Below are positions 1 to 42,711 of a DNA stretch of 42,816 nucleotides, one piece after another. The DNA is from an uncultured Gammaproteobacteria bacterium (lineage in GTDB: Bacteria > Pseudomonadota > Gammaproteobacteria > Nitrosococcales > Methylophagaceae). Numbering within the stretch: the first letter of the stretch is position 1; each line of letters starts with the position of its first letter. The position numbers and the translations under genes are program-made. The notes beneath the pieces were generated by a model. That model was not told where the DNA came from. It saw only the letters and a program-made list of their open reading frames with translations, and searched no databases. The stretch lies in NCBI GenBank assembly GCA_937900515.1, contig CALCCU010000230.1:1-42816 (forward strand). The letters run 5' to 3'.

Positions 1-888
1 ACATTCCTTACCCAAGCATGCATGCAAAGACAAAAAAACAATTGGATTGGTTTGTTCGTCACCCAGAGTATGTAAATCGTGTTGTTGAACGCGCGCGTCC
101 CTATCTTCACTATATTGTTGATCAAATTGAACAACGCGATATGCCGCTAGAAATAGCCTTATTACCTGTTGTTGAAAGTGGTTTTCAACCTTTCGCTTAT
201 TCTTCAGGTCGTGCTGCGGGTTTGTGGCAATTTATTCCTGGTACAGGCAAGATCTATGGCTTGCAGCAGAACTGGTGGTATGACGGTCGCCGAGATATTA
301 TTGAGTCGACACGTGCTGCACTTGATTATCTACAAAAATTACACAATGACTTTGGTGATTGGCAGCTAGCACTGGCTGCGTATAACTGTGGTGAAGGTGC
401 TGTAGGTAGAGCAATAAAACGTAATAAGAAAGCAGGTAAAGAAACTGATTTTTGGTCCTTAAATTTGCCGACTGAAACCTCTGCTTATGTGCCAAAATTA
501 CTCGCTATTGCTGAGTTGGTTAAACAGCCTGAGAAATACAATATCACGCTTAGCCCTATTGATAACTCACCTTTCTTGACTGTTGTTGAGGTGGGATCGC
601 AAATTGACTTGTCTCTAGCGGCTAAACTTGCAGGTTTAACAACGGATGAAATGTATCAACTCAACCCAGGCTTTAACCGCTGGGCAACACGTCCTGAAGG
701 ACCTCACCGTTTGGTTGTGCCTCTTAATAAATCTGGTGCCTTCTTAGATGGGTTACTCGATCATCCTTTAGATCAGCGTGTCCAATGGGCGCGTCATAAA
801 ATTAAAAAGGGTGAGTCACTGGGTGGTATTGCACAGCATTACAAAACAACCATTAATGTTATTAAAGAAGCTAATGGTTTAGCGAGTA
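1..888 (+). repeat. Tandem duplication inside mltD, copy 1 (888 bp)
   Basis: Bases 1-888 recur at 889-1776 at an offset of exactly 888 bp (296 codons, in frame). The only difference I see is T at 854 against C at 1742, which is silent (Ile). The copy carries the whole transglycosylase domain and the start of the first LysM module. Its left edge coincides with window base 1, which is also what an assembly break at a repeat edge would give. Confidence 0.93.
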
Positions 889-2246
889 ACATTCCTTACC
901 CAAGCATGCATGCAAAGACAAAAAAACAATTGGATTGGTTTGTTCGTCACCCAGAGTATGTAAATCGTGTTGTTGAACGCGCGCGTCCCTATCTTCACTA
1001 TATTGTTGATCAAATTGAACAACGCGATATGCCGCTAGAAATAGCCTTATTACCTGTTGTTGAAAGTGGTTTTCAACCTTTCGCTTATTCTTCAGGTCGT
1101 GCTGCGGGTTTGTGGCAATTTATTCCTGGTACAGGCAAGATCTATGGCTTGCAGCAGAACTGGTGGTATGACGGTCGCCGAGATATTATTGAGTCGACAC
1201 GTGCTGCACTTGATTATCTACAAAAATTACACAATGACTTTGGTGATTGGCAGCTAGCACTGGCTGCGTATAACTGTGGTGAAGGTGCTGTAGGTAGAGC
1301 AATAAAACGTAATAAGAAAGCAGGTAAAGAAACTGATTTTTGGTCCTTAAATTTGCCGACTGAAACCTCTGCTTATGTGCCAAAATTACTCGCTATTGCT
1401 GAGTTGGTTAAACAGCCTGAGAAATACAATATCACGCTTAGCCCTATTGATAACTCACCTTTCTTGACTGTTGTTGAGGTGGGATCGCAAATTGACTTGT
1501 CTCTAGCGGCTAAACTTGCAGGTTTAACAACGGATGAAATGTATCAACTCAACCCAGGCTTTAACCGCTGGGCAACACGTCCTGAAGGACCTCACCGTTT
1601 GGTTGTGCCTCTTAATAAATCTGGTGCCTTCTTAGATGGGTTACTCGATCATCCTTTAGATCAGCGTGTCCAATGGGCGCGTCATAAAATTAAAAAGGGT
1701 GAGTCACTGGGTGGTATTGCACAGCATTACAAAACAACCATCAATGTTATTAAAGAAGCTAATGGTTTAGCGAGTAACCGTATTCGCACAGGCCATAATC
1801 TGTTGATTCCTATGTCATCAGGTAAACCAAGTTCATACCCATCAAGCCAAACTCAGAAAATAGCGACAGGAAAAATTAAAGGGGGGCTTGGTAATAAAAA
1901 AATACATACCGTTAAGTCTGGTGATACTTGGTGGGATATCGCGAATAGTTATAAAGTAAGCGTCAATACGCTGACTGAGTGGAATAGTAAGTCGTCGAAA
2001 GACACGTTACACCTCGGCCAAAAATTAGTTGTTTGGGAAAAAAACTCAAAGTCTTCAAATAAAAACATTAGAAAAATAAACTATAAAATCCGTAGTGGAG
2101 ACTCACTTTGGAAGATCTCTCAGAAATTTAATGTGAGTGTAGCGCAAGTAAGAGATTGGAATGGTTTAAGTGAGCGTACCTTATTAAAGCCTGGTCAAAA
2201 CTTAACGTTGCATATTGATGTTACTCAGCAGCACGGTAATATCTAA
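1..2246 (+). CDS. mltD: MltD-type membrane-bound lytic murein transglycosylase with duplicated catalytic region (5' end outside window)
   Basis: Cleaves the glycan strands of peptidoglycan, leaving 1,6-anhydro ends; MltD acts at the outer membrane facing the periplasm. The frame is open from base 3, so the signal peptide and true start lie upstream of the window. Two copies of the transglycosylase domain are present, each with the catalytic Glu in PVVESGF, the [10 protein letters not shown] motif and the AAYNCGEG motif. They are followed by LysM modules: a first one truncated at the copy 1/copy 2 junction and complete in copy 2 ([13 protein letters not shown]), then [13 protein letters not shown] and [14 protein letters not shown] normal MltD has one catalytic domain, so this 742-residue partial product is unusually long. 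The stop lies 2 bp before trmL, suggesting co-transcription. The family call is secure; whether the duplicated form is real is uncertain. Confidence 0.9.
889..1776 (+). repeat. Tandem duplication inside mltD, copy 2 (888 bp)
   Basis: Second unit of the in-frame duplication. The junction reads gcgagtaac|attcc. The 2 bases AC are shared between the unit's right end (1777-1778) and the start of copy 2 (889-890), so the breakpoint is ambiguous by 2 bp, as at a microhomology or assembly join. After 1778 the sequence runs into the rest of LysM 1 and the two further LysM modules. Confidence 0.93.
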
Positions 2247-2900: not shown

Positions 2901-2976
2901 ATTGCTATTCTTTTTCCTGCCTAATGTTGGCGTTTTTTACCTTGAGTAAACCAAAATTTGTATTTGGTTCTCAGCA

Positions 2977-2997
2977 TCGATTTTTTATAAAAATCGA
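2977..2997 (+). promoter_or_regulatory. Perfect 9-bp inverted repeat in the xoxF 5' leader
   Basis: TCGATTTTT (2977-2985) and AAAAATCGA (2989-2997) are perfect inverted copies separated by TAT, ending 15 bp before the xoxF Shine-Dalgarno. It could be a leader hairpin influencing translation or mRNA stability, or a protein operator. Only the symmetry is seen; the role is inference. Confidence 0.45.
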
Positions 2998-3025
2998 GAG
3001 AAAACAACCTGTAAAGGAAGAAAGA

Positions 3026-4798
3026 ATGAAAAGAACACTATTATCTATAGCACTTTCAACGGTGACTGTATCCGGTTTTGCTGTTGCAGATGAATTATTA
3101 GTACTGCAACAGGATGAGAAACAATGGGTCATGCCGGCTGGTACTTATGACAATGCGCGCTATAGTAAATTAGAAGAAATAAATAAAAGTAATGTTAAAG
3201 ATCTTAAGCTAAATTGGTCTTTTTCAACTGGTGTCTTACGTGGTCATGAAGGTAACTCTCTCGTTATTGGTGACACAATGTATGTTCACACACCGTTTCC
3301 AAACATTACTTACGCGCTTGATTTAAGCAACGAGGGCGCGATCAAATGGAAATATGAACCAAAACAAAACTATGACAACGTTGTCCCTGTTATGTGCTGT
3401 GACACAGTTAACCGTGGTCTGTCATATGGTGATGGTAAGATTTTCTTAAACCAAGCTGATACAACACTAGTTGCTCTTGATATTAATACTGGTAAAGAAG
3501 TGTGGTCTGACAAACGTGCTGACCCGCGAACTGGTGCTACAAGCACAGGTGCAGCGTTTGTATTTGATGACAAAGTATTAGTCGGTATTTCAGGCGGTGA
3601 ATTTGGTGTACGAGGTTATGTTCAGGCCTATGACCTTAACGGTAAAAAAGTATGGCAAGCCTACAGTACTGGCCCTGATACAGAAATGTTAGTTGATGCA
3701 GAAAAAACAACATCCATGTTGGCACCAATCGGTAAGGATTCATCATTAGAATCATGGAAAGGTGACCAGTGGAAAATAGGTGGGGGAACAACATGGGGTT
3801 GGTATTCTTATGATCCTGATTTGAGCCTTGTTTATTACGGCACCGGTAACCCTTCTACTTGGAATCCAGCTCAGCGTCCGGGTGATAATAAGTGGGCGAT
3901 GTCTTTATTTGCCCGTGATCTCGATACTGGTGTTGCAAAATGGGTATATCAAATGACACCTCATGATCAGTGGGATTATGACGGTATTAATGAGTCTGTT
4001 TTAGTTGATCAAAAAATCCAAGGAAAAATGCGTAAAACAGCGGTGCATTTTGATCGTAATGGCTTTGCCTACACAATGGATCGAGTATCAGGTGAATTAT
4101 TGGTAGCTAAGAAGTTTGATCCTATGATCAACTGGGCTAAATCAATTGATATGAAAACAGGCCGTCCAATTGTTGATCCTAAATATGCACCTGAAGTGAA
4201 TGGTGAAGATGTGAATACAACAGGTATTTGTCCAACAGCTATGGGGGCAAAAAACCAAGAGCCGACAGCTTACTCACCGCGTACAGGTTTATTCTATGTG
4301 CCAGCTAACCATGTATGTATGGACTATGAACCATTTGAAGTTGAATATGTAGCTGGCCAACCGTATGTTGGTTCAAGCGTAAGTATGTATGCTGGTCCTG
4401 GTGGAAATATGGGCCGCTTCTTTGCTTGGGATGCTCGTGAAGGCAAGATAGTTTGGGATAACACAGAGCGTTTCTCAGTGTGGTCAGGTGCATTAGCGAC
4501 AGCAACTGATATTGTGTTTTATGGCACATTAGAAGGCTACCTAAAAGCAGTTGATGCTCAAACAGGTAGAGAACTATGGCGTTTTAAGACTGCTTCAGGA
4601 ATCATCGGTGCAGCTAATACCTATGAGCATAAAGGTAAACAATACATTTCTGTGTTATCTGGTGTAGGTGGCTGGGCAGGTATCGGTATGGCTATCCCAA
4701 GTCTTGGTGACTCTGATGGACTTGGCGCCGTGGGTGCATATAGAGGCTTATCTAGCTGGACCAATTTAGGGGGCGTATTAAACGTCTTTAGTCTTTAG
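3026..4798 (+). CDS. xoxF: Lanthanide-type PQQ methanol dehydrogenase XoxF
   Basis: Periplasmic PQQ enzyme oxidising methanol (and often formaldehyde), passing electrons to a c-type cytochrome. Starting at the ATG behind AAAGGAAG gives 590 residues with a signal peptide cleaved near AVA-DE (about residue 21). The vicinal disulfide Cys124-Cys125 of the PQQ pocket, Glu192 and the GTGNPSTWN segment carrying the metal-ligand Asn are present. The decisive motif is WDYDGIN: catalytic Asp317 is followed two residues later by Asp319, the extra carboxylate that coordinates the lanthanide in XoxF. Calcium-type MxaF has Ala there. Tryptophan-docking repeats and the C-terminal [19 protein letters not shown] segment are typical. 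The gene has its own terminator, and no adjacent xoxJ is seen. An upstream in-frame start at 2924 would add 34 residues before the signal peptide and was rejected. Confidence 0.95.
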
Positions 4799-29946: not shown

Positions 29947-31497
29947 TTACTGTTTAATACTGATCTTTGGCCTTAGCAGCTGTTTAATTTGTATTCCTAC
30001 TAGTGGCAAGATCGCAAAGTATAAGGCTATCGCTCCAGCTATTAAGCTTGAAAGCATAATGAAGCGCTGCCAAACAGATCCTTCTATCCAAATACTACTT
30101 TCAGGTGTAAACCACCAAAGTCCTATGAGTAATAAACTGTTTGGGATAAGTAACTTAAGCAAGAATTTCAACCAACCAAGATCTGGCGAATAAACACCAC
30201 GCTTAACAAGGCCCATATAAAGCAAGGCAGCATTTAATAATGCTGATAATGCCGTGGCTAAAGCAAGCCCAACGTGAGCATATTCAATCATTAATATGAC
30301 GTTAAAAACCATATTACTGATCATAGCAATAATGCCAATTTTGACAGGGGTTTTGGTATCTTGGCGAGCGTAATAGCCAGGAGCAAGTACTTTAATAAAG
30401 ATAAAGGGTAACAAACCTAGACCATAAGCCATTAAGCTCAGTGAGGCCTGATGGGCATCTGAAGCGCTAAATTCTCCATACTGGAACAAGGTAAGGAGTA
30501 AAGGCTCTGCAAGCCAGATAAGGCCAATTGCAGCTGGCGTTGCGATAATAAAGACCCAACGCAGCGCCCAATCAATTGTATGTGAAAATTCTTTTGTGGA
30601 TTTTGATGCATGCTTTTTGGATAAGCTAGGCAATATGACAGTGGATAATGCGATACCGAATACACCTAAGGGAAACTCTACTAAGCGATCAGAATAGTAG
30701 AGCCATGAAATACTGCCTGTAACTAAAAATGATGCCAGTAATGTATCAAGCAGTAAATTGATTTGAGCTACTGAAACACCAAAGATTGCTGGCAGCATAA
30801 GCTTGAGTATTTTTTGAACGCCACTGTTTCTCCATCCCCAGCGAGGGAAATGTAATTGTCCTATTTTGATTAAAAATGGGATCTGAAACAGTAACTGTAC
30901 TACTCCTCCTATAAATACACCCCATGCTAATGCTGTGACTGGTTGCTCTAATTGAGGAGATAACCAGATTGCAGAACTAATTAAGGATAAGTTAAGAAAT
31001 ACGGGTGTAAATGCGGGAATGGCAAACTTACCAAAGCTATTTAAAATCGAACCTGCCAATGCGGTTAATGAGATAAAAAATAAATATGGGAAGGTGATCT
31101 TAAGTAAGTCTCCAGCCAATTCAAGCTTGGCTGGGTTTTCAATAAAACCTGGAGCAAAGATCATAATTAATAACGGTGCAGCTATCACTCCTATAGCCGT
31201 TATCGCAAATAAAATAACGGTCAGAGTACCGCTGGTGGCTTCAATTAACTGCTTGAGATCTTTATCGCCCCGCTCACGATATTCAGCTAAAACAGGAATA
31301 AATGCTTGAGAAAAGGCTCCTTCTGCAAATAAGCGACGTAAGAAATTAGGTATTTTAAAGGCAACAAAGAATACGTCAGCACCTATGCCTGCACCAAACA
31401 AGCGTGCAATCACTATATCGCGTACAAAGCCGAGTATTCGTGATAAGAAGGTCATCATGCTAACAATAGCCGTTGATTTAAATAACTTTTCGCTCAT
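29947..31497 (-). CDS. murJ: Lipid II flippase MurJ
   Basis: Polytopic inner-membrane MOP-superfamily protein that moves lipid II across the membrane. The 516 residues start with STAIVSMMTFLSRILGFVRDIVIARLFG. The conserved KIPNFLRRLFAEGAFSQAFIPVL segment contains the functional Arg/Glu cluster, and the chain shows about 14 hydrophobic helices by eye. The length equals E. coli MurJ (511). It is convergent with purK and divergent from the Sco-like gene; the usual rpsT or ribF neighbours are absent. Confidence 0.97.
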   Translation of the reverse strand: MSEKLFKSTAIVSMMTFLSRILGFVRDIVIARLFGAGIGADVFFVAFKIPNFLRRLFAEGAFSQAFIPVLAEYRERGDKDLKQLIEATSGTLTVILFAITAIGVIAAPLLIMIFAPGFIENPAKLELAGDLLKITFPYLFFISLTALAGSILNSFGKFAIPAFTPVFLNLSLISSAIWLSPQLEQPVTALAWGVFIGGVVQLLFQIPFLIKIGQLHFPRWGWRNSGVQKILKLMLPAIFGVSVAQINLLLDTLLASFLVTGSISWLYYSDRLVEFPLGVFGIALSTVILPSLSKKHASKSTKEFSHTIDWALRWVFIIATPAAIGLIWLAEPLLLTLFQYGEFSASDAHQASLSLMAYGLGLLPFIFIKVLAPGYYARQDTKTPVKIGIIAMISNMVFNVILMIEYAHVGLALATALSALLNAALLYMGLVKRGVYSPDLGWLKFLLKLLIPNSLLLIGLWWFTPESSIWIEGSVWQRFIMLSSLIAGAIALYFAILPLVGIQIKQLLRPKISIKQ

Positions 31498-31557
31498 TCA
31501 GGACTCATGTTTAATGATACGATCTAGCCATTACATAAATCTCAAAGAGTAGTGTCG

Positions 31558-32208
31558 ATGGCCAAACGATGTAAAGGACTTAATTCTAAGTGTTTTTTAT
31601 TTACATATCTCATTATTGTCGGTTTTTTATTAGTTTTATGGATGAATAATTTACCTTTAATGCATGAAGAAACACGCGAAATTCCTGCTGAATTACAAAA
31701 TATTATCGAATCCCCTGCTCGTCCACTGCCTGATTTTTCTCTCGACACTGAAGAAAAGTTAGCACTTACCCCTTCTTGGTTTATTGGTAAGTGGAGCTTT
31801 GTTACCTTTACTCATAGTCACTGCCTACCAAGTTGTCAAAACGTACTGACTACTCTTTCTGGGTTACATACAGCATTTGCGAGCAAGCATATTCAGTTTT
31901 TAGCTATCGGTATTGATAGTGGTAATGACTCGGTGTCAGAGTTGAGCAATTTCCTCACTGCGCAGAAGGTCTCGGCTAAAGCTGTTACTGCTTCTGAATC
32001 TGTTATTGATATGGTGGCGCACTCATTTATTGCCTTGTTCTTAAAAACTGAGTATAGCGATGGAAGCTATATAATTGAACAAGAATATAATCTGTTTTTA
32101 GTCGATCCTAAGGGGCGTGTCTACGCGACATTTAAACCGCCGTATAATAGTGATTCAATCTCAGCGATGTTTTTTAAATTACGTCACTTTTATGGTCGTA
32201 GTGAATAA
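31558..32208 (+). CDS. SCO1/SenC-like membrane-anchored thioredoxin-fold protein, copper-ligand His absent
   Basis: Thioredoxin-fold protein of 216 residues. One N-terminal helix (about 11-30) anchors it with the domain outside. The Sco motif CxxxC is present: Cys89 and Cys93 in HSHCLPSC. Sco proteins deliver copper to the CuA centre of cytochrome oxidase through these Cys and a distal His in a VDHS-like motif. Here the matching stretch reads YIIEQEYNLFLVDP, placing Gln175 where the His should be. It may act as a thiol reductase or bind copper differently. The ATG at 31558 is better spaced from AAAGAG than the GTG at 31552. No oxidase genes are nearby. Its 3' end is 8 bp from the convergent oxyR stop. 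Confidence 0.82.
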   Translation: MAKRCKGLNSKCFLFTYLIIVGFLLVLWMNNLPLMHEETREIPAELQNIIESPARPLPDFSLDTEEKLALTPSWFIGKWSFVTFTHSHCLPSCQNVLTTLSGLHTAFASKHIQFLAIGIDSGNDSVSELSNFLTAQKVSAKAVTASESVIDMVAHSFIALFLKTEYSDGSYIIEQEYNLFLVDPKGRVYATFKPPYNSDSISAMFFKLRHFYGRSE

Positions 32209-32216
32209 ATATAAAA

Positions 32217-33116
32217 TTACGCTAATGCCTTAGCAAATAATGTTGAAAGCGAATCAAGAGTTGTTTGGCGGCTATAGCTTGGTCGCCATACTAAGCCGAT
32301 CTCTCTCATTGGCTTACTACTGCTAGCTAACTTTCTGAGAGTAATATCTGCATGCTGGATCATATCTGAATTAATTGCCATTTCTGGGATTAGCGTGATC
32401 CCCAAACCACTAGCTACCATTTCTATCAACGTATACAGGCTCGTTCCTTGTACACTAGTTCGTTGTAATGTTGTAGGTAACTGACAAGCACTTAGGGCAT
32501 GTTCACGTAGGCAGTGACCTTCTGATAGTAGTAAAAGCTCGTCAACTGGCAACTGACTGGTTTGTACATAATCTTCTGCTGCTAGCCTATGAGAGTTCGG
32601 CATTGCTAACCAAAACTGTTCATCTGCAAATATCTTATAGTCTAATCCACTAACATCAAATGGAAATGCTAGTACCGCAATATCGAGATCTCCCGTGCGT
32701 AATTTGTTGAGCAGCCTTTCGGACTGATCCTCTACGAGTATTACCTCAAGGTCAGGTAGTTCTTTTCTGATAGATTTTAGAGCTTTCGGTAGCAAGAATG
32801 GACTGATACTTGGGATGAGCCCTACTCTAACTCGTCCTGTCAGAGGGCTTTGTTCAGACTTGGCTATATCGACCATATCTGATGATAAAGATAGGATATG
32901 TTGAGCTCGCGCTGAAATTTCGATACCAATACTTGTTGGTATTACTTTACGGTTTGTTCGTTCTAACAGTGTCGTCCCAAGGATGCTTTCTAAATCTTGG
33001 ATGCCAGCACTTAATGTAGATTGAGTTACAAAGCAATGTTGTGCTGCTTGCCCAAAATGTTTGTGTTCAATTACAGCTGTTAGATACTGTAATTGTCGAA
33101 GAGTTGGTAAATTCAT
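32217..33116 (-). CDS. oxyR: Hydrogen peroxide-sensing LysR-type regulator OxyR
   Basis: Peroxide sensor that activates antioxidant genes when a disulfide forms. The N-terminal winged helix has LRQLQYLTAVIEHKHFGQAAQHCFVTQSTLSAGI and the OxyR-like LLERTNRKV. The effector domain has the redox pair Cys202 and Cys211 in SEGHCLREHALSAC; the nine-residue spacing equals E. coli Cys199/Cys208. The start is the ATG at 33116 (299 residues, beginning MNLPTLRQLQ) rather than a GTG five codons upstream. It diverges from the rubredoxin gene across 290 bp. Confidence 0.94.
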   Translation of the reverse strand: MNLPTLRQLQYLTAVIEHKHFGQAAQHCFVTQSTLSAGIQDLESILGTTLLERTNRKVIPTSIGIEISARAQHILSLSSDMVDIAKSEQSPLTGRVRVGLIPSISPFLLPKALKSIRKELPDLEVILVEDQSERLLNKLRTGDLDIAVLAFPFDVSGLDYKIFADEQFWLAMPNSHRLAAEDYVQTSQLPVDELLLLSEGHCLREHALSACQLPTTLQRTSVQGTSLYTLIEMVASGLGITLIPEMAINSDMIQHADITLRKLASSSKPMREIGLVWRPSYSRQTTLDSLSTLFAKALA

Positions 33117-33250
33117 TATCGGAAAATCCACTTAATAATATAAGTTCAATCCACTGTGACAAAAAAAACATAATTTGTAAACTACAGTATCATTCAATAA
33201 ATCTGGTGTGGTTTTCACAATCAGCGTAAATTAAGTCGTTTATTGTATCG

Positions 33251-33277
33251 TTGACAATTGATTAGAAATGCTAAAAT
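33251..33277 (+). promoter_or_regulatory. Candidate sigma-70 promoter for rubredoxin
   Basis: Perfect -35 TTGACA (33251-33256), and -10 TAAAAT (33272-33277) preceded by TGC, forming an extended -10. The spacer is 15 bp, shorter than the optimum. It would give a leader of about 120 nt. Sited in the oxyR-rubredoxin divergent region, where OxyR control is possible. Confidence 0.45.
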
Positions 33278-33406
33278 CTAGCACTCAGATAAGATACAAA
33301 ATATTGCTGAAGATGAAGTTAGTGTCAGCGTCAGCTAAATAAAAGTTAAGTTCAGCAAATTAGTTTAATCAAATAATAAAATCGATAAATATTTTGGAGA
33401 CACAAA

Positions 33407-33571
33407 ATGAAAAAGTGGGAATGCACGGTATGTGGTTGGATTTATGATGAAGCTAAGGGGCTCCCTGAAGATGGTATTGCTCCTGGAACAGCCTGGGCTG
33501 ATGTGCCTGACGATTGGGAATGTCCAGAATGCGGCGTTGGCAAAGACGATTTTGAGATGGTAGAAGTATAA
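33407..33571 (+). CDS. Rubredoxin
   Basis: A 54-residue iron protein carrying one electron at a mononuclear Fe(Cys)4 site: Cys6 and Cys9 in [11 protein letters not shown], Cys39 and Cys42 in [12 protein letters not shown]. The aromatic and [18 protein letters not shown] segments match standard rubredoxins. GGAGA stands 6 bp before the ATG. Rubredoxins feed alkane hydroxylases, rubrerythrin or peroxide/superoxide reductases; the divergent oxyR suggests an oxidative-stress role here, but no partner enzyme lies in the window. A terminator follows directly. Confidence 0.96.
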
Positions 33572-33584
33572 AGATAAACTAATA

Positions 33585-33609
33585 GAGGGAGAAACCCCCT
33601 CCCTCTTTT
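33585..33609 (+). terminator. Rho-independent terminator of rubredoxin
   Basis: GAGGGAG (33585-33591) pairs with CTCCCTC (33599-33605), followed by TTTT; 13 bp after the stop. Confidence 0.8.
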
Positions 33610-33777
33610 AACTCTAGTCTCACACCCATTGCCTCGGTTTCCTGCGAACATAAAGGCCAGCTGCAGCCTGTTTTCTATAGCAGTAACTTTATTGTGGATT
33701 CATTTTACAGTAAAGTAAGTAACACTAACGTTAATTAATCTTTACCCTTATTTACCTTTCTTTCTGGAAGATTACTT

Positions 33778-34848
33778 TTGCTTGGCCAATTAAATATAAA
33801 TAATGTTCGGAACATTACTGATATACGTATCCAGCCATCTGCAGGAATAAATTTGATCTTAGGTAGTAATGGTTCTGGGAAAACAAGTGTACTTGAAGCG
33901 ATTCATATGCTTGCATTGGGTAAATCATTCCGCTCACGCTCATTAAAATCTGTCGTTCAATTCTCTCAACCACAGTTACAAGTAACCGCTAAAACATCAA
34001 GTAATATACCAGTTGGACTCCAGTATTCTATAGATTCAGGTTTAAGCATTCGTTTAAATAATGCACCACTAAAACGCCTATCAGAACTAGCGACACAGTT
34101 ACCGCTACAATTCATACCTGCTAACTGTCATCAGTTCTTCGAGCAAGGTCCAAAGTACCGTCGTCAACTACTCGACTGGGGCTTGTTTCACGTGGAACCA
34201 AACTTCAATTATCTTTGGCAGTCGTATAAAAAAGTACTTCAACAACGCAATTCAGCACTTCGCCAGCATAAACAAGTGAATGAAATTCAATTATGGGATA
34301 GCCAATTAGCGAGTCATGGCGAGGAGATAACTAAGCTTAGGAAGATGCAATTGTCGCGGCTGCTTAAAGAGTTTGAGAATATATTCCCTCGCCTTTGCCC
34401 AGTGTATGAAAATGCTAGCTACGAATTAAAATATCGAGATGGATGGCTGAAAGGTGAGTCACTTTTGTCAGCATTGACCGCGTCAATATCACGGGACCAA
34501 CAATTAGCATATACTCGATCTGGCAGTCATGCAGCTGACTGGCTTTTCAAAATAAATGACAGTGATCCTTCTGAAGTGTTTTCTAGGGGCCAACAAAAGT
34601 TGTTTTATCTTGCTCTTTGCATGGCTCAAGCAACTATCACCGCGCAAAACAATCATGAGACATCAATATTATTATTTGATGATCTGAGTTCTGAATTGGA
34701 CCTTTTGCATCAAGTAAATGTATTAAAAGAGCTTGATGAATTACCAGTACAAGCATTTATAACAGCTACTGAATTAGATGCAGCCTTGACAGAAAATCAC
34801 ACGCTGTTTCACGTGAAACAAGGCAGGCTTCTTGAAAGCGGTAGTTAA
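33778..34848 (+). CDS. recF: DNA replication and repair protein RecF
   Basis: SMC-like ATPase that helps RecOR load RecA at gaps. The 356 residues carry Walker A in LGSNGSGKTSVLEAIH, the signature FSRGQQKLFYLALCMAQA and Walker B ILLFDDLSSELD. The start is TTG at 33778, with GGAAG seven bases upstream and the expected opening LGQLNINNVRNI; no in-frame ATG is suitably placed. recF is normally preceded by dnaN, but here a rubredoxin gene stands upstream. Two FHV-encoding sites inside the gene are parS-like (34184-34199 and 34805-34820). It ends 57 bp before gyrB. Confidence 0.96.
   Translation: MLGQLNINNVRNITDIRIQPSAGINLILGSNGSGKTSVLEAIHMLALGKSFRSRSLKSVVQFSQPQLQVTAKTSSNIPVGLQYSIDSGLSIRLNNAPLKRLSELATQLPLQFIPANCHQFFEQGPKYRRQLLDWGLFHVEPNFNYLWQSYKKVLQQRNSALRQHKQVNEIQLWDSQLASHGEEITKLRKMQLSRLLKEFENIFPRLCPVYENASYELKYRDGWLKGESLLSALTASISRDQQLAYTRSGSHAADWLFKINDSDPSEVFSRGQQKLFYLALCMAQATITAQNNHETSILLFDDLSSELDLLHQVNVLKELDELPVQAFITATELDAALTENHTLFHVKQGRLLESGS
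34184..34199. promoter_or_regulatory. Degenerate parS-like site in recF
   Basis: TGTTTCACGTGGAACC matches the parS consensus TGTTTCACGTGAAACA at 14 of 16 positions. It encodes a conserved FHVEP stretch of RecF, so part of the match may reflect protein constraint. May be a weak ParB site. Confidence 0.45.
34805..34820. promoter_or_regulatory. parS: Perfect chromosomal parS centromere site at the 3' end of recF
   Basis: TGTTTCACGTGAAACA is a perfect 16-bp palindrome identical to the widely conserved bacterial parS, where ParB loads for chromosome segregation and SMC recruitment. It lies within the last codons of recF, encoding FHVKQ. parS sites usually cluster near oriC, which fits a recF-gyrB location. 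Confidence 0.85.
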
Positions 34849-34858
34849 GTGTAGTATG

Positions 34859-34867
34859 TGGTAAAAT
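34859..34867 (+). promoter_or_regulatory. Candidate extended -10 for gyrB
   Basis: TGGTAAAAT (TGn plus TAAAAT) 38 bp before the gyrB ATG; no matching -35 is seen. Would let gyrB be transcribed apart from recF. Confidence 0.35.
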
Positions 34868-34890
34868 ACCGCTCTTAGCGCAAATGTTAA

Positions 34891-37317
<2,427 letters not shown>

Positions 37318-39507: not shown

Positions 39508-40059
39508 ATGTCGACACCTCCTGAAAAACCTCGTTTAGCATGGGCTGTAAGTGGCTCAGGCCACTATTTAGAAGAGTGTTTAGATATTGTTCGAGAGCTA
39601 GAAGACGTCGATCTATTTTATAGCCGCGCTGGTGAAGAAGTTATTCGTATGTATGGTCATGATCCAAAGGCAATTAACTCTAAGAGTCGAACTTATCATG
39701 ATCGAGCTGCTAGCGCTCCTCCTGTAGGCCTTTTTTATAGAGGTGATTACCATACCCTAGTGGTTGCACCTGCAACATCAAATACTGTTGCTAAAATGGT
39801 ATTAGGACTTTCTGACACATTAATAACTAATGTTTATGCACAAGCGGGAAAATGTCGTATACCAAGTATTGTGCTGGCGTGTGATACTGAACCTGAAATG
39901 GATACGCCTGCACCAGATCGTATTGTTAAAGTTTGGCCTCGCGCGGTTGATTTAGAGCATACGCGAAAGTTAAGAATGTTCGAAGCTACGACAGTCGTAG
40001 AAACCCCTGAGAAATTATTATCTGCGATTCAGTTGCGTTTAGATGCAGTAAATGGCTGA
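39508..40059 (+). CDS. HFCD-type flavoprotein, dihydromethanopterin reductase (AfpA/DmrB)-like
   Basis: Flavoprotein-fold protein of 183 residues. LAWAVSGSGHYLEECLDIV at the N-terminus and the FMN-binding stretch VVAPATSNTVAKMVLGLSDTLITN place it in the HFCD flavoprotein group. With MfnB and DUF447 beside it, it is most like the archaeoflavoprotein/DmrB group proposed to reduce dihydromethanopterin to H4MPT in methylotrophs. It opens the operon and overlaps the next gene by 8 bp. Functional assignment rests on family memory plus context; other flavoprotein redox roles are possible. Confidence 0.78.
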   Translation: MSTPPEKPRLAWAVSGSGHYLEECLDIVRELEDVDLFYSRAGEEVIRMYGHDPKAINSKSRTYHDRAASAPPVGLFYRGDYHTLVVAPATSNTVAKMVLGLSDTLITNVYAQAGKCRIPSIVLACDTEPEMDTPAPDRIVKVWPRAVDLEHTRKLRMFEATTVVETPEKLLSAIQLRLDAVNG

Positions 40060-41458
40060 GAAAGTCTTATTTCTAACTGGCAAGTTAGCTGAGCCAAGTT
40101 TGCACCGAGTCTTAAATGATATGGTGGCTTTACCATTCGAATATAGGGTGCATCAGCTAGGTGTTTCGGTTGCCGCCTTGATGACGGACAAAATGATTGC
40201 ACGACGATTAACGCCAGAAATCATTGCTGATAGCGATCAGATTGTTGTTCCGGGTCGTTGTCGCGGCAACTTAGAAGAGTTGAGCGCGCAACTTGGCGTT
40301 GAAGTGGTTAGAGGACCTGATGAGGTCAAAGATCTGCCACTGTATTTTGGTCAAGCGAAAAAGGCTGCCGATCTGAGTCGTTATGATGTTAACATTTTTG
40401 CTGAAATCGTTGATGCTCCTGAGCGTTCAATCGAAAGCATTATTGAACGAGCAAATTATTATGGCCAGAACGGTGCTGATGTTATTGATATTGGCTGCTT
40501 ACCAGAAGAAAAATTCCCACACCTAGAAGAAGCCATAGCAGCATTACATGAAGCAGGCTTTAAAGTCAGTGTCGACTCGTTGGAGCTTGATGATCTGCGT
40601 CGAGCTGGCAAAGCTGGGGCTGATCACTTATTAAGCCTTACTGAGAAAACATATCACCTCGCTGAAGAGACTGATGCTGTGCCTATCCTTGTTCCAGCGG
40701 AAATGGGGTCATTAGCCTCACTCGAAAGAGCTATGGAGTTGATGGATAAAATAAATCGACCGTGGATTGCCGATCCGATTTTAGACCCGGTTCACTTTGG
40801 TTTAACTGATTCAATCGTACGCTACCATGAACTTCGTCGTAAATACCCGGATGCACCGATCATGATGGGAGTAGGTAATCTGACGGAATTAACGGATGCC
40901 GATACCAGCGGTATAAATGCAATATTGTTTGGAATAATTTCTGAACTAAATATAAATAACGTGCTTGCAACCGAAGTGAGCCCTCACGCACGAAATGCAA
41001 TTATGGAAGCAAATATTGCTAGGCGAATGATGTTTGCTGCGCGCGAAGATAGTAGTTTACCTCGTGATTTTAGCAGCGATTTATTGATTGCACATGAACG
41101 TAGGCCTTTCCCTGATACAGAGGAAGATATACATTTTCTTTATGAAAATATTAAAGATCCAAACTACCGTATAAAGGTCGCTGAAAAAGGTATCTATATG
41201 TTCAATCGTGAAGGCCTAATGCAAAATGTCGATCCCTTTGCTTTTTACCCTCAGATTGATTTAAAGGGCGATACTGGCCATGCTTTTTATTTGGGGGCAG
41301 AACTAGCAAGAGCTCAAGTGGCATGGCAATTAGGTAAGCGTTATACGCAGGATGAAGAATTACGATGGGGTTGTGCTGTGAAAGTAGAAGAAGACTTAAC
41401 GAAGCAAACAGCAGAAGGCTCGACCTTAACAACAGGAAAAAAATGTGGCACGGCTTGA
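40052..41458 (+). CDS. DUF6513 / dihydropteroate synthase-like protein of the H4MPT cluster
   Basis: A 468-residue protein of two parts. The N-terminal domain (about 1-110) starts KVLFLTGKLAEPSLHRVL. A pterin-binding TIM barrel follows (about 115-330) with GADVIDIGCLPEE, VSVDSLELDDL, IADPILDPVHFGLTDSIVRYHELR and IMMGVGNLTEL, echoing dihydropteroate synthase. A C-terminal region (about 330-468) ends in a Lys/Thr-rich tail. Such proteins occur with H4MPT genes in methylotrophs and methanogens, suggesting a step in building the pterin side chain; no activity is proven to my knowledge. It overlaps both neighbours (8 and 14 bp). Confidence 0.85.
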   Translation: MAEKVLFLTGKLAEPSLHRVLNDMVALPFEYRVHQLGVSVAALMTDKMIARRLTPEIIADSDQIVVPGRCRGNLEELSAQLGVEVVRGPDEVKDLPLYFGQAKKAADLSRYDVNIFAEIVDAPERSIESIIERANYYGQNGADVIDIGCLPEEKFPHLEEAIAALHEAGFKVSVDSLELDDLRRAGKAGADHLLSLTEKTYHLAEETDAVPILVPAEMGSLASLERAMELMDKINRPWIADPILDPVHFGLTDSIVRYHELRRKYPDAPIMMGVGNLTELTDADTSGINAILFGIISELNINNVLATEVSPHARNAIMEANIARRMMFAAREDSSLPRDFSSDLLIAHERRPFPDTEEDIHFLYENIKDPNYRIKVAEKGIYMFNREGLMQNVDPFAFYPQIDLKGDTGHAFYLGAELARAQVAWQLGKRYTQDEELRWGCAVKVEEDLTKQTAEGSTLTTGKKCGTA

Positions 41459-42029
41459 AAGTAAAATTCATGAAGTGATTGTGACATCCCTGTCTAACAA
41501 TGGTGAGGCTCACTCTGCTCCTATGGGGGTGTCAGAAGTGAATGCTCACATTATTATTCAGCCCTTCAAGCCGTCATCAACTTATGAAAATTTAAAGCGT
41601 CATCGCCAGTGTGTTATTAACTATACTGATGATGTTCGTGTGTTCGCTGGAGCTTTAACTGGTCACCGTGACTGGCCAGTCTTGCCGTGTAATTCTATTG
41701 ATGGCTACTACCTTGAAAGTGCCTTGTCACATACTGAGTTGTATCTCGAACAATTTGAAGATAATAATCCACGCTCTCGTTTTGAGGGTAAAGTTCTCTC
41801 TGAACATACTCATGCCCCCTTCCGAGGCTTTAATCGTGCACAAAGTGCAGTTATTGATGCTGCGGTTTTAGTGAGCCGCTTGCACATGCTTCCTCACGAA
41901 AAAATACAGCAAGAAATTGCCTATCTAAGTATTGCGATTGAAAAAACCGCGGGAGAAAGAGAGTTAGAAGCATGGGGGTGGTTGATGGATAAAATTGATC
42001 AAGCAGGAATAATATTAAACAATGACTAA
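41445..42029 (+). CDS. DUF447 family protein
   Basis: A 194-residue protein with a flavoredoxin-like split-barrel N-terminal half (KIHEVIVTSLSNNGEAHSAPMG, FKPSSTYENLKRHRQCVINYTDDV) and a helical C-terminal half. DUF447 proteins are found in methanogens and H4MPT-using methylotrophs and their role is unknown. GTG at 41445 is the start: AGGA stands seven bases upstream, and the frame overlaps the previous gene by 14 bp. It overlaps mfnB by 8 bp. Confidence 0.87.
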   Translation: MARLESKIHEVIVTSLSNNGEAHSAPMGVSEVNAHIIIQPFKPSSTYENLKRHRQCVINYTDDVRVFAGALTGHRDWPVLPCNSIDGYYLESALSHTELYLEQFEDNNPRSRFEGKVLSEHTHAPFRGFNRAQSAVIDAAVLVSRLHMLPHEKIQQEIAYLSIAIEKTAGERELEAWGWLMDKIDQAGIILNND

Positions 42030-42711
42030 ATGGCTTGCGAGTGTACAGTCAGTTGATGAAGCTAAGAGTCTGATAAACGTACTACCAGATATTTTAGATA
42101 TGAAAGATCCTTCTCGTGGCGCACTAGGAGAATTAGATGTTTCTGTTGTTAGTGAGATTGTGTCACTCATAAATGGTAAATGTCTGACAAGTGCAACTGT
42201 CGGTGACTTGGAAATGGATGTGACTGTTCTAGGCCCTGCTATCGAAGACATGGCTAGCAGTGGTGTTGATTACGTCAAGATTGGTCTTTTTCCAGATGAA
42301 AACATTCGTCAATGTCTCAGCGATATCGCGGCAGTTATTAAGCCGCTTGAAACGCCCGTCATCGCCGTCTTATTTGCAGATAGGCCCCTTGGCCTAGAGG
42401 TGCAAACTTTATTAGCTGAAAGCGGCTTTAGAGGGGTTATGGTTGATACTGCAATCAAAAATGGCAAACATCTACTTGATCATATGACCTTAGATAAGTT
42501 ATCAACATTTGTTAATGCAGCAAAACAACAAAACTTATTATCTGGCTTGGCAGGTGCATTACGACAAGAAGATATTTCTGTACTGTCATCTCTTGATGCA
42601 GATTATTTAGGTTTTAGAAGTGCTTTATGTGAACAACGAGAGCGTAATGGTGGTCTAGACCTTCAACGTATTAAAGCTGTTAAAGCGTCGCTCGATGGGT
42701 ATCAAAAATAA
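42022..42711 (+). CDS. mfnB: (5-formylfuran-3-yl)methyl phosphate synthase MfnB
   Basis: Builds the furan ring of methanofuran from two molecules of glyceraldehyde-3-phosphate. The 229-residue TIM barrel carries the DUF556 signature: Lys28 in LDMKDPSRGALG (the Schiff-base Lys position), Lys86 in YVKIGLF, and the Asp142...Lys146 pair in VMVDTAIKNGKHLLDH. These match the catalytic Lys/Asp positions of the methanogen enzyme as I know them. Methanofuran is the formyl carrier of the Fhc complex in methylotrophs, so the gene is evidence for H4MPT/methanofuran-linked formaldehyde oxidation. It overlaps DUF447 by 8 bp. Confidence 0.92.
   Translation: MTKWLASVQSVDEAKSLINVLPDILDMKDPSRGALGELDVSVVSEIVSLINGKCLTSATVGDLEMDVTVLGPAIEDMASSGVDYVKIGLFPDENIRQCLSDIAAVIKPLETPVIAVLFADRPLGLEVQTLLAESGFRGVMVDTAIKNGKHLLDHMTLDKLSTFVNAAKQQNLLSGLAGALRQEDISVLSSLDADYLGFRSALCEQRERNGGLDLQRIKAVKASLDGYQK

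Follow-up and report, generated by a model that had tools for sequence, protein, structure and literature searches.

The recF gene described here raises the question of whether a peptide that occurs twice in a conserved protein is held for the sake of that protein or for a DNA site written into the same bases. According to the first-pass annotation of the window, by which we mean the whole stretch of 42,816 nucleotides that was analysed, two parS sites lie within recF, chromosome segregation fixes the codons at these sites, and the segment is close to the replication origin. In ParABS systems, ParB loads at parS and spreads, and ParA moves the replicated origin region. From the comparison of sequences, we consider it very probable that the two recF sites represent the chromosomal centromere (parS), which would be old in the class (Gammaproteobacteria) and selected as DNA, with recF translated through it.

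The recF sites in the window and its host genome

Both sites described by the annotation, a perfect palindrome and a variant matching it at 14 of 16 positions, are present (Table 1), and translation of the open reading frame places each of them on Phe-His-Val of RecF. Measured against the degenerate 14-mer GTTNCACGTGNAAC, the variant shows no mismatch, and calling it a full match is more accurate than calling it a near miss. Read in the recF frame with their flanking bases, the first site is TTG-TTT-CAC-GTG-GAA-CCA (LFHVEP) and the second CTG-TTT-CAC-GTG-AAA-CAA (LFHVKQ). When up to three mismatches to the palindrome are allowed, the window contains 2 matches compared with a mean of 0.22 in 100 shuffled versions, 3 of which had at least two matches.

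Table 1. Positions of the parS sites and of the genes that carry or adjoin them in the window.
Feature	Position	Strand	Description
parS site 1 (MID)	34184..34199	+	TGTTTCACGTGGAACC, 2 mismatches to the 16-mer palindrome
parS site 1, core 14-mer	34185-34198		full fit to GTTNCACGTGNAAC
parS site 1, codons	34186-34197		TTT CAC GTG GAA (FHVE)
parS site 2 (END)	34805..34820	+	perfect palindrome TGTTTCACGTGAAACA, 0 mismatches
parS site 2, codons	34807-34818		TTT CAC GTG AAA (FHVK)
recF	33778..34848	+	356 aa, listed TTG start; TIGR00611, 327 bits (cut-off 172)
gyrB	34906..37317	+	downstream neighbour of recF

A scan of the whole host genome for parS, which the annotation had put forward as a check, located only these two sites: among all contigs of the draft, GTTNCACGTGNAAC has 2 exact matches, both in recF, and the reversed control pattern has none. 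A parS-like site with one mismatch occurs on contig C66, inside an unrelated gene. The genome encodes a single full ParB (TIGR00180, 199.7 bits, contig C58), and from their translations we read the neighbors of parB as gidB and parA. The closest named RecF N-terminus is that of Methylophaga sp. OBS4 (69%), which marks the host as a Methylophaga-like bacterium. On this arrangement, ParB encoded beside the gidB- and parA-like genes would load at both recF sites and spread over the recF-gyrB region, and ParA would move the replicated origin regions apart.

For the proposed proximity to the origin, the evidence is indirect. The window contains neither dnaA nor dnaN; these two genes lie on another host contig (C133, 41106 bases, stretch 31175-35503 examined), where dnaN is followed not by recF but by a short open reading frame whose translation looks like a DksA/TraR-type protein. 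The recF-gyrB pair is thus detached from dnaA-dnaN (window 29947-34848), as it is in Methylophaga sp. OBS4 (L208), and in both cases the genes before recF-gyrB were read from their sequences as lysR, a tlpA/SCO-like gene and murJ. The GC-skew plot suggested by the annotation, which we drew for the window, was positive in all steps but one and had no clear switch; it does not place the origin inside the window. What stands is a looser proximity derived from composite maps. In the relative G143, recF and parB occupy one contig approximately 85 kb apart, and in G002 approximately 24 kb separate parB from dnaA; a distance of about 0.1 Mb or less between recF and the origin is therefore probable.

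The separation of recF-gyrB from dnaA-dnaN in this family also bears on the view that the recF sites are inherited remnants and that the working centromere lies elsewhere, in a non-canonical form or in an assembly gap. The state of the host draft (2.75 Mb in 289 contigs, 96.8% complete) would leave room for such a gap. However, both sites of the window are intact, and pairs spaced 618-657 bp apart occur in 31 of the 33 genomes of the window family that were listed among 37 searched; pairs were confirmed inside recF for G000, G002 and G143, and one of the 37 had no parS site. We therefore regard a remnant as highly improbable and continue to treat the two recF sites as the predicted centromere.

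A third sequence that recurs in the family, GTTTCACGTGCAAC, was considered as a further centromere and rejected. This sequence, or the degenerate parS-like 14-mer GTTGCACGTGAAAC, occurs in 11 of the 33 family genomes listed. In the six copies fetched (L335-L340), it lies in a glutamate-synthase-like gene, which we take to be glutamate synthase, in another reading frame and within a conserved VARET stretch. The recurrence of GTTGCACGTGAAAC is likely a result of protein constraint.

Several other features of the window were recorded. An exact 300-base direct repeat occupies positions 1-300 and 889-1188 (spacing 888; window 1-1188), and the open reading frame at 3-2246 contains an identical protein stretch twice; this repeat at the contig start probably arose as an error of assembly where the contig terminates. 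Positions 2924-4798 encode a PQQ-dependent methanol/ethanol-type dehydrogenase (TIGR03075), and a gene cluster at 39508-42711 resembles genes of methanopterin-linked C1 metabolism, the two together fitting a methylotroph.

Recurrence of the sites in recF across the class

RecF, the parS 14-mer and ParB were searched for in a sample of 276 genomes of the class. At least one canonical 14-mer was found in 234 of these genomes and exactly two in 159, and in total, canonical sites numbered 502 and matches to the reversed control pattern 38. The positions within recF were then read from 150 recF loci (149 sampled genomes and the window), which are the better-scoring part of the 226 loci over the cut-off; the share of recF-internal sites may be lower over all 226. 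Among these best 150 of 226 loci, 240 of the 310 canonical sites of the genomes lie inside recF, all 240 are in an identical reading frame, every canonical site is within recF in 95 genomes, and the spacing between MID and END in the 108 pairs is 612-651 bp. Single near-matches do arise by chance, as the one-mismatch site on contig C66 illustrates. However, the excess over the reversed pattern and the concentration of sites in one gene and one frame contradict the reading of these 14-mers as chance matches without function, which we consider to have practically no probability.

The counts differ between genomes with and without ParB. Within the same set (best 150 of 226 loci), 146 genomes encode ParB, and 131 of them have at least one canonical site at the two recF places (both in 108, MID only in 14, END only in 9), leaving 15 with neither. 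Four genomes have no ParB match, and three of these have neither site; the fourth, which has END only, is G114, a fragmented assembly of approximately 300 contigs. The contrast between the two groups has a p value of 0.005, a figure that ignores kinship and rests on four ParB-minus genomes.

The recF gene is a common place for parS and not an obligatory one. Outside the 150-locus set, G185 has both sites in recF; in four other, lower-scoring recF-bearing genomes (G024, G154, G248 and G043), no RecF was found around the fetched parS stretches, with one further parS site each in G024 and G154 lying outside those stretches. On a RecF tree calculated with the motif columns removed, the minimum number of state changes is 18 for MID, 17 for END and 10 for any site, and it follows that gains or losses happened repeatedly. 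The tree yields five well-supported independent pairs per site, a number with which a p value of 0.05 is out of reach; among the pairs listed, none goes in the opposite direction. A separate arrangement was observed in G060 (L101), in which recF has neither site and five canonical or near-canonical parS sites extend over approximately 12.5 kb of another contig, possibly a relocated centromere.

A second sample consisted of 80 named loci found with the RecF N-terminus query alone, with the motif kept out of the search pattern; two of the loci (L270 and L282) are represented by partial RecF frames only. Both sites are present in 49 of the 80 loci, at least one in 65 and neither in 15. The rows with both sites include Azotobacter, Microbulbifer, Rheinheimera, Pseudoalteromonas and the Halomonas-type rows, with the exception of Salinicola. 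In Pseudomonas, 14 of the 16 rows have both sites and two, L276 and L285, have the second only, the first having been lost through synonymous changes alone. Neither site was found in the rows of Rouxiella, Gilliamella, Pasteurella, two Vibrio-like organisms and Photobacterium iliopiscarium, nor in three Marinomonas rows, Salinicola, Marinobacterium and five other named rows. Twelve further loci of the class divide into seven with both sites and five with none, and parS is absent from all 28 recF loci taken from other classes of the phylum. The recF gene of E. coli K-12 also has neither site: the corresponding RecF peptides are FHNEP and FTVEK, and the DNA is 4 and 3 mismatches from parS. One paper describes the Enterobacteriaceae and Pasteurellaceae as having no par genes, and the E. 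coli mismatches fit the decay of the sites in a lineage without chromosomal ParABS.

Apparent constraint on the DNA and on RecF at the two places

A parS site in this frame would force the codon string xxG TTY CAC GTG RAA Cxx on recF, which is translated as FHV[E/K] and then a residue with a codon that has C as its first base. The annotation had claimed that the shared bases fix the codon choice and had proposed codon conservation among relatives as a check. We compared the codons at 103 RecF columns with each gene's own usage in all 150 rows, with or without parS. The six most biased columns are the V, H and E columns of both motifs, with z values of 9.4-16.7, compared with 7.5 for the next column and a median of 1.6 (best 150 of 226 loci; kinship inflates z in all RecF columns). 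The claim is upheld by this bias, together with the single reading frame, the matched variants and the parS sites of genomes without recF.

The residues themselves, beyond their codons, also appear to follow the DNA site. In the 28 rows without parS at the first place, F is kept in 28, H in 13, V in 4 and E/K in 9; in the 32 without parS at the second place, F is kept in 21, V in 14, H in 9 and E/K in 15. That such rows lose V, H and E is to some extent built into the definition of the site, and the informative part is that most non-canonical sites are many mismatches away: at least three in 21 of 28 first places, and at least four in 22 of the 30 second places measured, the other eight having one mismatch. 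Similarly, the G that ends the codon before F and the C that starts the codon after E/K are imposed by the site definition. The residue after E/K is H, P or Q in nearly all rows and R otherwise, with L in none, as expected if a base, and not a residue, is held. An association between the F codon and the choice of E or K, which the palindrome predicts, has a Fisher p value of 4e-8 and is confounded by base composition and kinship.

Matched substitutions at both places provide a further line of evidence. Among the 15 ParB-encoding genomes without canonical recF sites, four (G003, G022, G148 and G162, at loci L163, L067, L119 and L142, respectively, from four families) have no canonical parS and show, at the two recF places, one-base variants that match each other; a search with GTTYYAYRTRRAAC found these paired variants nowhere else in the genome. 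No other genome of the set has exactly one mismatch at each of the two places (best 150 of 226 loci). The variant of G022 changes V to M at both places, and those of G148 and G162 leave the protein unaltered at both. In G003, the identical variant occurs at the two places in opposite orientation, so that the same DNA change replaces V with M at one place and is silent at the other. Matching in four of four genomes would be unlikely under uniform mutation; however, three of the four variants hit the central CpG, and the chance is therefore less small than it looks. A visual comparison of the ParB helix-turn-helix residues in genomes with canonical sites and in those with variant sites revealed no clear change in specificity, and we consider the four genomes to be candidates for a shifted ParB specificity.

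The sites also occur in genomes without the gene. Eleven of the genomes listed with parS places have no RecF over the cut-off, and in nine of them (G071, G274, G237, G139, G126, G226, G053, G174 and G263; families f71, f139, f126 and f53) parS lies between dnaN and gyrB, the position in which recF would be expected. The dnaN-gyrB gaps measure 120-307 bp in eight genomes and 870 bp in G174, and a tblastn search of the nine gaps for RecF gave no match. The chromosomal address of these sites is like that in the window, and seven of the nine genomes likewise have a pair; unlike those of the window, the sites are outside any recF, and the pairs are spaced 25-106 bp apart in six genomes and 722 bp apart in G174. 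A single site is present in G053 and G263, and G071 has a third site elsewhere. The two remaining genomes without recF, both of family f91, have their parS sites around gidB-parA-parB.

These observations must be weighed against the opposite reading, in which RecF has two copies of FHVE/K as a working motif, perhaps to contact RecR, DnaN or DNA, and the codons of this motif merely happen to produce the parS match. The retention of Phe at all 28 first places without parS, the occurrence of F-x-V at the second, C-terminal place in other classes, and the FHVE that the Vibrio-like rows retain at the second place with a CAT codon all agree with a role in the protein. However, such a role would not account for H, V and E codons fixed far above each gene's usage, for first places that are mostly far from parS once they are non-canonical, for matched variants that leave both copies of the motif unchanged in two genomes and only one copy unchanged in another, or for the persistence of parS where recF is absent. 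We consider the protein motif to be very unlikely as the explanation; only Phe, with a tendency to F-x-V at the C-terminal site, looks to be required by RecF itself. Because of the codon bias, the matched variants and the survival of parS between dnaN and gyrB without recF, selection appears to hold the DNA, and RecF appears to be written around parS.

On balance, we favor a broader proposal, with more reserve than the identification of the centromere itself: that the centromere has resided at recF since early in the class and that FHV[E/K] is a translated centromere and not a repair motif, one that would shift with the preference of ParB (V to M twice in G022), fade with the loss of ParABS and outlive recF. 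Such a locus would be a natural example of residues in a conserved protein that are dictated, across much of a bacterial class, by a DNA-binding site, and residue conservation in a RecF alignment would then be no sure sign of RecF function. Three questions thereby become testable: can two recF sites serve as a complete centromere, has RecF co-evolved with ParB specificity in G003, G022, G148 and G162, and why is this address favored?

Comparison with known parS systems

Sites of the same consensus within coding sequences are known from Bacillus subtilis, which has approximately ten, for example in spo0J; the host genes differ from the one described here, and we know of no recF among them. In Caulobacter, ectopic insertions of parS have an unexplained hot spot over recF, gyrB and a neighboring gene, according to one paper (PMC5815017). 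The literature passages retrieved contain no statement that a recF pair is general in the class, nor that parS in recF shapes the RecF sequence or outlives the gene. A search for RecF together with FHVE returned RecF papers only, with FHVE in none of the matches listed.

The closest known system is that of P. aeruginosa, in which parS1 and parS2 lie inside recF, as excerpts of three papers state (PMC3909081, PMC5521831, PMC4368675); one account among these excerpts describes intragenic parS sites that were mutated with the proteins unaltered. As far as these excerpts go, P. aeruginosa and the host of the window both have two ParB sites within recF, predicted in the latter, and genome-encoded ParA and ParB. 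P. aeruginosa itself is absent from the 80 named loci; in the alignment of these loci, the sites of the Pseudomonas rows occupy RecF columns homologous to those of the window and share their reading frame. The same excerpts assign P. aeruginosa additional sites, among them parS3 and parS4, and a recF within a dnaA-dnaN-recF-gyrB operon, whereas the host genome of the window has no canonical sites besides the recF pair and its recF-gyrB is not beside dnaN. A parS site inside recF is thus already known from Pseudomonas, and the window adds another case; the interesting part is the generality of the arrangement and a RecF that appears to be written around the centromere.
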